Origin: Sorex araneus
Lineage: Eukaryota; Chordata; Mammalia; Eulipotyphla; Soricidae
Direction of reading: 5' to 3'
Length of the DNA: 64,000 nt
NCBI RefSeq assembly: GCF_027595985.1
Contig: NC_073304.1
Location: forward strand, 221,750,500 to 221,814,499
Made by a program: the position numbers and the translations under genes. A model generated the notes under the pieces. That model worked only from the letters and a program-made list of their open reading frames with translations, ran no database searches and was not told the DNA's origin. Shown here piece after piece: positions 11,021 through 23,838 of this stretch; position 1 is the stretch's first letter, and every line of letters starts with the position of its first letter.

Positions 11021-11197
11021 GGGCCGGAGCCATAGTACAGCGGATACAGCGCTTTCCTTGCACACAGCCAACCGGGTTTGATCCCTGGTGTCCCATATGG
11101 TCCCCCAAGCACTGCCAGGAGTAATTCCTGAGTGCAGAACCAGAAGTAACCCCTGAGCATCACTGGGTGTGGCCCAAAAAGAAAAAAGAAAAAAAGG
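11020..11197 (+). mobile_element. SINE family A, nested
   Basis: Target duplication AGGCAAGAGCCTT on both sides, inside the older antisense copy. Confidence 0.92.
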
Positions 11198-11274
11198 CAA
11201 GAGCCTTAACCCATAGAACTCTCTTTCTAGTATTGGTAATTGCAAGCTTTAAACAACCCACATTTCTGTATTTT

Positions 11275-11762
11275 TTTTAATTTATTTTTTATTATTGAAT
11301 CACCGTGAAACAGTTACAAAGCTTTCAGGTTTAAGTCTCAGTCATACAATGATCAAACACCCATCCCTTCACCAGTGCACATGTTCCACCATCAAGAACC
11401 CCAGTATACCCCCATCCCACCCCCTACCCTCCCTGTGTGACTGATGATTTTCACTTTACTCTCTCTTGACTTTGATGACATTCAATGTTTCAACAGAAAA
11501 CTCACTATTATTATTTGGAATTTCCTCCAAACAATCAGACATGCCGAAAAGGCATCATTTGATAATTTGTTTTCTGTTGCTGATATTAAAGGGCATATGA
11601 GGGTTGTCGCAGCCGCACAGTTTTGGATTTCTGGTATTTTAGTAATTAAGTCCAGAGAAATTTCTGCCAGCAGCCACTGGGTTACGAAATTGGTTCATGT
11701 GCCTCTAGGATCATGGCTGTTCAGGAGCGGAGGAGCCATTCGTTGGCAGCTGCTCGGGGTCT
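11275..11762 (-). mobile_element. Non-autonomous LINE-like retroelement, 488 bp copy
   Basis: In sense (minus strand) it ends with a G-rich region, CTTAAACCTGAAAGCTTTG, TTTCACGGTGATTCAATAAT and an A-tail. An 18-base target duplication (CCCACATTTCTGTATTTT) lies at 11257-11274 and 11763-11780. The middle matches the longer element at 22570-23638 around ATGATGCC, CTGATTG and AATAATAGTGAGTT, so both belong to one family. The CpG-rich 5' units of the longer copy are absent: 5'-truncated or a different subfamily. No ORF of note. Confidence 0.85.
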
Positions 11763-22335: not shown

Positions 22336-22569
22336 AATGTGTTTTTCATACAGTGATTCCTGGAGCTGATGGCAGTGGGGAGCAACTGCGCTGGGGCTCA
22401 ACGCGGCTCTCCCACTGGAGCTATCTCCTCAGTCCCTCGGATGCCTTTTCAGCAGTTTTCTCTGTCTGAACTTAAGCATTCTCGGCTCCTTAACAAAGAT
22501 GGGATAGCCTTGAGGACACATGAGACTGGGCGGAATCTGGCTGGAGAGATTGATCTAAAGAGGTACCTA

Positions 22570-23638
22570 GGAACCGAGAGCCGCGGCACAAGAAGCAGAG
22601 CCTCCGCGCCTATTGACTGTGATCCTGAGGTCTCCTAACCCATTTTGGCACCAGAGCGGATGCTTGAGCCATGCATTTTGACTGTGAACTGAGCTACAAC
22701 CTCGTGCAGCCCGGGGAGGGATTTTTTTTCCCTCTCCACCCCATTTTTCTGAGCGAAAATGGCGGCAGCGGCAGCAGCCACGCGGTGAGAGCCACCCTCT
22801 AAGACCCCTCCACCAGGAGGTAGGACTTTCTTTAGTGACGTAGCCTGTAGGTGGTCCTGGGAGGGGGGGGCGTTCCCGGCGCGCCTTCCGCCCAGAGATG
22901 AACCGAGAGCCGCGGCACGAGAAGCAGAGCCTCCGCGCCTACTGACTGTGATCCTGAGGTCTCCTAACCCATTTTGGCACCAGAGCGGATTCTTGCAGCC
23001 ATCCATTTTGACTGTGATCTGAGCTAAAATATTAGAAACCCAAAACCGCAGCCGCGCGGACTCAAAGTCTTCACTCTTACCAATGAAGAGAAATTATTAG
23101 ATGATGCCTATTCAGCAGGCCTGATTGTTGGGGAAAATTTCCAATCAATAATAGTGAGTTCTGTATGGAAATATGAAATGTACTCAATATATATAGGGAA
23201 TAATGGGAATATCATTAGCTAATTATATGGGGGTGGGGTGGGAGGGGGGTGTATTGGGGTTCTTGGTGGTGGAACGGGTGCACTGGTGAAGGGATGGTGG
23301 TTTAATCAGTATTTGACTGTGACTTAAACCTGAAAGCTTTGTATTTTTTTTGTTTTCACGGTGGTTCAATAAAATATTTCTTTAAGAAAAAAAAAATAAC
23401 CACAATGCCCAAAGGGAGAGAGGGAACAGAGGGAAATGATCTGCCAATAAGGCAGGGTGGGGAGGGGAATGGGGTGGGAGGTGGTGGGAGGGATGATGGG
23501 GTCAACAGTGGAGAACGGGTACTGGTAGAGGGATAGATACTCAAGCTGTATATGACTAAAACACAAGCATGAGAATATGTAAACCTGTATCTGTACCCCC
23601 AGAGTGATTCATTAATAAAAATTTTAAAAAATAAAAAA
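22570..23638 (+). mobile_element. Complete 1.07-kb non-autonomous retroelement with duplicated 5' unit
   Basis: Flanked by the 13-base duplication AAAGAGGTACCTA (22557-22569 and 23639-23651), so both ends are intact. The 5' part is CpG-rich and starts GAACCGAGAGCCGCGGCAC at 22571; about 125 bp of it recur from 22900, a 329-bp period. Between them lie AAAATGGCGGC (YY1 type, near 22757) and TGACGTAG (CRE-like, near 22836). An AT-rich middle (23040-23215) follows, then a G-rich 3' region ending TTCAATAAAA plus A-run (near 23370-23396), then a second, related 3' unit (23400-23638) with AATAAAAA and an A-tail. No ORF over about 125 codons. The organisation resembles an L1 promoter joined to an L1 3' UTR, with no ORF1 or ORF2. 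L1-driven mobility is inferred from tail and duplication. Confidence 0.85.
22571..22899 (+). promoter_or_regulatory. 5' monomer 1 of the retroelement, promoter-like
   Basis: CpG-rich, with AAAATGGCGGC and TGACGTAG; the first ~125 bp repeat at 22900-23024 with few differences. Confidence 0.6.
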
Positions 23639-23664
23639 AAAGAGGTACCTAAAGACCTAGTGGT

Positions 23665-23838
23665 GGGCCAGAGAGATGGCTCAGTGGGTAGGGAGCTTGC
23701 CTTCTACGTGGCTAACCTGGGTTTGATTCGCCACATCCCATATGACTCCCAGGGCACCGCCAGGAATGATTCCTGAGTGCAGAGCCAAGAGTAAACCCTG
23801 AGCCTGCTGGTGTGACCACAAAAACAAAACAAAAAGAC
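23665..23838 (+). mobile_element. SINE family A
   Basis: Near-duplication AAAGACCTAGTGGT / AAAAGACCTGGTAGTT. Confidence 0.85.

Follow-up and report, generated by a model that had tools for sequence, protein, structure and literature searches.

A non-coding shrew repeat family that joins promoter-like tandem monomers to an L1-derived 3' end and probably parasitises L1

HAL1 (half-L1) is a non-autonomous mammalian L1 derivative that keeps ORF1, and the SVA and LAVA elements carry their modules in the order Alu-like, VNTR, and SINE-R or L1. In the description cited, SVA and LAVA are non-autonomous composites of hominoids that contain tandem repeats and are mobilised in trans by L1 (PMC7353768). 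SIDEs are known from R2 and R2/R1 of Drosophila, as given in the excerpt cited (PMC3414825), and from the Persaeus/Zenon CR1 elements of Lepidoptera, in a report whose cited passages also name RIME, call LINE-derived SIDEs rare, and list earlier ones from fruit flies, mosquito and Trypanosoma brucei only (PMC6740152).

The family described here resembles SIDEs, as those passages portray them, in being short and non-coding, in keeping a 5' expression module together with a 3' end homologous to a LINE 3'UTR, in having spread by target-primed reverse transcription (TPRT), and in having recent copies; it differs in that its probable partner is a mammalian L1 and its 5' module is a variable tandem array with no match in the L1 5' regions read. 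With the mouse L1 5'UTR it shares, on the portions of the literature cited, tandem promoter monomers whose number varies between copies, a YY1 motif, and a common 5' start that is taken as the transcription start (PMC6454616, PMC9022269). The mouse monomers, as described in the same portions, stand in front of L1s that carry ORFs, and a tether lies between them and ORF1 (PMC6454616, PMC9022269), whereas the truncated last unit of the shrew arrays runs straight into a 3'UTR, and one shrew array has 48 monomer markers. The shrew element is, like SVA and LAVA, a non-autonomous, tandemly repeated composite, but differs from the modules described for them, since the anatomy read here comprises only the monomer and an L1 3'UTR; like HAL1 it is a non-autonomous L1 derivative, but it has neither ORF. 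Our verdict is that the shrew family would behave as a SIDE whose monomer promoter is in the style of mouse L1.

The window, the whole 64,000-nt stretch of Sorex araneus DNA that was analysed, contains one unit of this family from 22570 to ~23396, made up of one complete monomer, a truncated unit, about 370 bp of L1 3'UTR and a poly(A) (Table 1). The original prediction had described a complete short retroelement with two promoter-like 5' units and two 3' units, and much of its detail held on inspection. The 13-base target duplication at both ends is exact; the 5' repeat comprises 96 bp that recur at a distance of 329 bp with 97% identity, and a further 33 bp at 91%; the YY1 core and the CRE-like motif are present; and two G-rich tracts are each followed by AATAAA (at 23368, and at 23614 and 23630). 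The absence of ORFs was likewise borne out, the longest stop-free stretches in the first 830 bp being 77 codons on the forward and 152 codons on the reverse strand. On the two strands of the 64-kb window together there is a single occurrence of AAAATGGCGGC, a YY1-like motif, and a single one of TGACGTAG, which is CRE-like.

Table 1 Features of the element copy, in positions of the window
Feature	Position	Strand	Evidence or remark
5' target duplication (TSD) AAAGAGGTACCTA	22557-22569	+	13/13 identical to 23639-23651
Lone untemplated G at the 5' junction	22570	+	Read as cap-derived
Complete promoter-like monomer, 329 bp, 59% GC	22571-22899	+	Tandem in other copies, spacing ~325-330 bp
YY1-like motif AAAATGGCGGC	22756-22766	+	Exact in 17/21 copies; 20/21 if CpG changes are allowed
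CRE-like motif TGACGTAG	22836-22843	+	In 20/21 family copies
Monomer-end zone where other copies start; putative transcription start zone	22865-22900	+	5' ends, 20/21 copies
Truncated last unit, the monomer's initial ~127 bp	22900-23026	+	Repeats D1, D3
Monomer/L1 3'UTR join, CTA common to both sides	23024-23026	+	Alignment to L067 and L019 L1 3'UTRs
Part derived from an L1 lineage-B 3'UTR	23024-23386	+	G-rich tract 23229-23252; AATAAA at 23368
Shortened remnant of a GC-rich hairpin (12-bp arms)	23046-23059	+	Comparison across scored copies
Poly(A) of the family unit	23387-23396	+	Main matches of 39 other scored copies stop at query 822-831
Fused 3' end, 5'-truncated, of another L1 related to lineage A	23397-23638	+	This copy
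3' target duplication (TSD) AAAGAGGTACCTA	23639-23651	+	Exact repeat of 22557-22569

The genome (2.4 Gb, 65 contigs) was searched with window positions 22570-23638 as the query, and 40 of 5,562 candidate matches were scored; loci are given below by their handles (L, followed by a number). Among these 40, the window's own copy alone spans query 1-1069. In the 39 others the main match begins at query 1-7, ends at 822-831 and has 95-98% identity; the last 240 bp of the query are reached by none of them. Five weak extra pieces (70-78%) near some copies lie upstream or on the opposite strand and are no continuation of the copy. The earlier reading of 22570-23638 as a single complete unit is thus rejected on the ends of the other copies and on the single occurrence of the junction discussed below.

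Short patterns searched against the genome gave 2,933 matches to the monomer/3'UTR join (28-mer, at most two mismatches), 3,583 to the unit (36-mer, at most one mismatch), 1,918 to the monomer interior (28-mer, at most two mismatches) and 2,122 to the 3' end (29-mer, at most two mismatches), and the reversed pattern, used as a control for each of the four counts, gave 0 matches every time. An exact unit or join lies upstream of 39 of the 48 exact 3' ends in C1:0-77.5 Mb, so about four fifths or more keep 5' units. The genome search for many independent copies, for which a single copy was the adverse outcome, therefore came out in favour of a family, with thousands of join matches and independent target duplications.

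The mean pairwise difference among 21 copies (the window copy and 20 fetched of the 39) is 2.3%, and the non-CpG difference from the majority in the same set is 0.9%; these copies were chosen by closeness to the window, which biases the age and favours copies reaching GAACC, so both figures date only the window's subfamily. Taken by its copies, the family appears to be a genuine young, high-copy, non-coding L1 parasite. No report of it was found in the open-licence literature searched.

Monomer arrays were surveyed in C1:0-77.5 Mb, where 52 groups contain the exact unit 36-mer. One or two exact units, counting the truncated last unit, are present in 48 of the 52 groups; the remaining four have 4, 6, 7 and 9 units, the truncated unit included, repeated every ~327 bp; the group with 9 spans 10 positions. 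The number of complete monomers read per copy ranges from 1 to 9. An exact join follows downstream in 34 groups (30 at 61-69 bp, 4 at 319-581 bp) and a non-coding join in 16 more (1 by L068, 15 by sequence), for a total of 50/52; the last two (L073, L086) run into monomer sequence, and the exact 3'-end marker follows after 668 and 463 bp, respectively. None of the 52 arrays surveyed in this interval by the exact 36-mer leads to L1 ORF1. Copies continuous with L1 ORF1/ORF2, the contrary case named in the original prediction, were thus not encountered, and an autonomous L1, truncated or deleted, whose monomers would be continuous with ORF1/ORF2, was rejected on the same count. Conversely, the nine ORF1 matches in C1:0-77.5 Mb lie 52.7 kb or more from an array, a weak comparison in which 150 of 13,300 candidates were scored.

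Target duplications of 15-18 bp, read at both ends, flank the whole array in all four long arrays, so insertion in one piece extends to arrays as long as ~3.7 kb. In each of the four the truncated unit is the last before the join. Three carry the full 3' part; in L066 it breaks off at query 759, ~70 bp short of its end, and a different A-rich tail follows. The four longer arrays differ from the window copy by 6.5-8.3%. L066, L067, L068 and L070 depart from the window type in common ways, CCAAGAGCC and CCTCCCGCC among them, and form a second subfamily, 91.7-93.5% identical to the window copy.

On the reverse strand of C1 (G000:C1:130635534-130650883), 48 consecutive exact monomer-interior markers recur every 326 bp, over ~15.3 kb from first to last. 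The exact 3'-end marker lies 514 bp past the last of them, the corresponding distance in four ordinary copies being 487-515 bp. Judged by these markers, the monomer has grown there into a satellite-like array.

The 5' ends of the copies were compared in the aligned set. Target duplications of at least 13 bp are present in 17 of 21 copies and of 8-9 bp in three (L016 doubtful), and in L024 a 13-bp duplication was found by eye that the script had missed. The insert starts 0-35 nt upstream of GAACC, within the tail of a would-be preceding monomer, in 20 of the 21 copies, and ~110 nt upstream in L024; since the query ended at GAACC, the scoring favours copies that reach it and sets no penalty on extending further. 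Three of the four long arrays begin in the same zone upstream of GAACC, and L091 begins inside a monomer. Among the four copies with a single exact unit, L092 and L093 start in the start zone of that last unit, and the other two have a further monomer.

A single untemplated G is the expected trace of RNA cap copying. Untemplated bases were checked in 24 copies (the 21 aligned plus L088-L090), of which 22 could be scored (L016 and L024 could not). Exactly one untemplated base is present in 13 of the 22, and it is a G in 13/13, the window copy at 22570 included; the other 9 lack the extra G, among them L012, whose mismatch lies inside templated sequence. These observations are good evidence that the 5' ends reflect full-length copying of a capped Pol II RNA, with a promoter that would lie downstream of the start of that RNA. 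Targets of the L1 endonuclease type carry a TT/AA-like cut; TT, CT or TC directly precedes the cut in only 10 of 19 duplications, some of them trimmed by hand. As in L1-mobilised elements, a poly(A) tail and target duplications are present.

The 3' part, from 23024 to the poly(A), is collinear with the lineage-B L1 3'UTR, at 69-75% identity over 347-370 positions. Its identity to the L1 3'UTRs of L067, L019 and L025 is 72, 71 and 69%, and in L019 and L025 this 3'UTR comes after ORF2. The closest relative among those compared is an older lineage-B L1 3' end at window 11100-11700 on the reverse strand (75%). On these alignments, the 3' part is judged to be derived from the L1 lineage-B 3'UTR. 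L049, an L1-A with a target duplication, has open frames of 351 and 1,286 codons; because of its open frames L1-A is the likely mobilising partner, yet its 3'UTR (L049) is 47% identical to that of the element, over 333 positions.

We consider it very probable that this is a non-autonomous, Pol II-transcribed retroelement family, in which n complete monomers of ~327 bp (n = 1 in the window copy) precede the truncated unit, ~370 bp of L1-B 3'UTR and a poly(A), and that it is inserted by TPRT in trans by L1. The original prediction of a parasite of L1 composed of a promoter and a 3'UTR, with tandem monomers, agrees with the joins, the target duplications, the variable monomer number, the L1-derived 3' end and the lack of an ORF. 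In the proposed cycle, transcription would begin at a monomer's first base or slightly ahead of it, and the RNA would in this way take its own promoter along; this promoter role is suggested by the 5' ends and the motifs. An autonomous L1, probably L1-A, would supply in trans the proteins for target-primed reverse transcription of the capped, polyadenylated, non-coding RNA, and most of the resulting duplications measure 13-18 bp. Arrays would become shorter when transcription begins in one monomer or another, and longer by unequal exchange or slippage.

The window copy carries in addition the fused 242-bp tail at its 3' end. Among 40 matches scored of 3,191 candidates, the tail is 97% identical to L030 and 90-95% identical to 38 other places; it is 70% identical to the L1-A 3' end. 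Of 19 other fetched places, all but L032 were compared for the sequence upstream of the tail: 16 share it, L040 is truncated at about the same point and L045 differs. ORF2 C-terminal sequence lies just upstream of the tail in 14 of the 19. The two 3' units of the original prediction are both there, but a different L1 lineage is the source of the second, which was found joined to the element in the window copy only: the fused-junction 25-mer has 1 match in 2.4 Gb at up to one mismatch. Both parts lie within one target duplication, for which the simplest explanations are either a template jump or a 3' transduction whose source is gone. In the latter, a source copy would have lain upstream of a lineage-A-type L1 3' end, which read-through RNA carried along. 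The single duplication around both parts and the AATAAA in each would suit such an origin, but the junction 25-mer reveals no source locus (which may be lost, diverged or unassembled), the element adjoins none of the 19 other fetched tail places, and we regard transduction as rather unlikely. The favoured account, the template jump, is suggested by the structure of the insertion: most likely the reverse transcriptase began on the 3' end of another L1 and jumped to the poly(A) of the element RNA, which would leave a two-part insertion inside one duplication.

Strict membership among the SIDEs hinges on the 5' origin of the monomer. The monomers had been likened to tandem L1 promoter monomers; they are indeed tandem, but no match to them was found upstream of L1 ORF1 in L049-L063, L065 and L069. 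The 5' regions of L049 and 11 other L1-A copies, of L055 and L061-L063, and the sequence upstream of ORF1 in L019 contain no monomer match, and an origin of the monomer from the young L1-A 5'UTR was rejected for want of a match in the L1-A 5' ends read. A tRNA-type or other known small-RNA head was also rejected: no Rfam family reaches the gathering score in 22400-23800 and no tRNA gene was found in 22557-23651, so these searches give no Pol III promoter from a small RNA gene, the mark of a SINE. Outside the family copies, the window and 299 kb of fetched sequence hold short chance matches to the monomer only (15-40 bp, E ~0.5).

The question whether monomers and 3'UTR share a lineage-B L1 as their origin, with ORF1 and ORF2 removed by an internal deletion at the CTA microhomology, which would make the family a true SIDE with the proposed life cycle and a single L1 parent, seems to us evenly balanced. 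Collinearity of the 3' part with the L1-B 3'UTR sets in shortly past the ORF2 stop, CTA is common to the two sequences that meet at the join, the L1 5'UTR is known to take the form of tandem monomers in mouse, in the section cited (PMC6454616), and three L1-A copies have a tandem 5' repeat at ~143-bp spacing; against this, the monomer is unmatched in the 12 lineage-A 5' ends, in L055 and L061-L063 and upstream of L019 ORF1. The same lack of relatives, with short chance matches alone outside the family and no Rfam match at the gathering score, would fit an SVA-like composite, in which a non-L1 monomer (a host promoter or another repeat) was captured before an L1 3'UTR. No donor locus was found in the small part of the genome searched, and this origin is a serious possibility that we lean against. 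That the window copy is just a singular L1 with an internal deletion, or an artefact of assembly, is vanishingly improbable; nothing was found in favour of either, and the singular deletion was rejected: the 2,933 matches to one fixed join are dispersed, and the target duplications are independent.

As a LINE-derived SIDE on a mammalian L1, the family would be young and numerous and would spread thousands of portable promoter-like blocks. It would provide natural tests of what L1 needs in a template RNA (poly(A) versus 3'UTR), of the gain and loss of promoter monomers, and of the transition from transposon promoter to satellite. More tentatively, and with some doubt on our part, a captured non-L1 promoter monomer might be a selfish unit that multiplies in tandem, jumps as whole arrays of up to ~3.7 kb and seeds long, homogeneous tandem arrays; if so, one family would link a transposon promoter to satellite formation.

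Three further features were noted in the sequences read. Beside the join, the full hairpin is a GC-rich 28-nt structure with 12-bp arms that is predicted to fold stably. Among 40 scored copies (42 looked at), 14 have the whole hairpin or differ from its length by no more than 1 nt, and 26 have it shortened or altered, mostly individually, so that it appears as an indel hot spot. Its loops occur in both orientations (TATT/AATA and TATC/GATA), as might arise if the template was skipped or inverted inside the hairpin. In the young L1-A copies L057, L059 and L065, ~58-118 bp of the 5'UTR are present as a second tandem copy at a spacing of ~143 bp, and L1-A may have short monomers of its own. In L060 (reverse complement 629-768), a 3'UTR-like piece, 74% identical to element positions 691-829, stands directly before a lineage-A L1 5' end; either an L1 was inserted at an old poly(A) or this is another two-part insertion.
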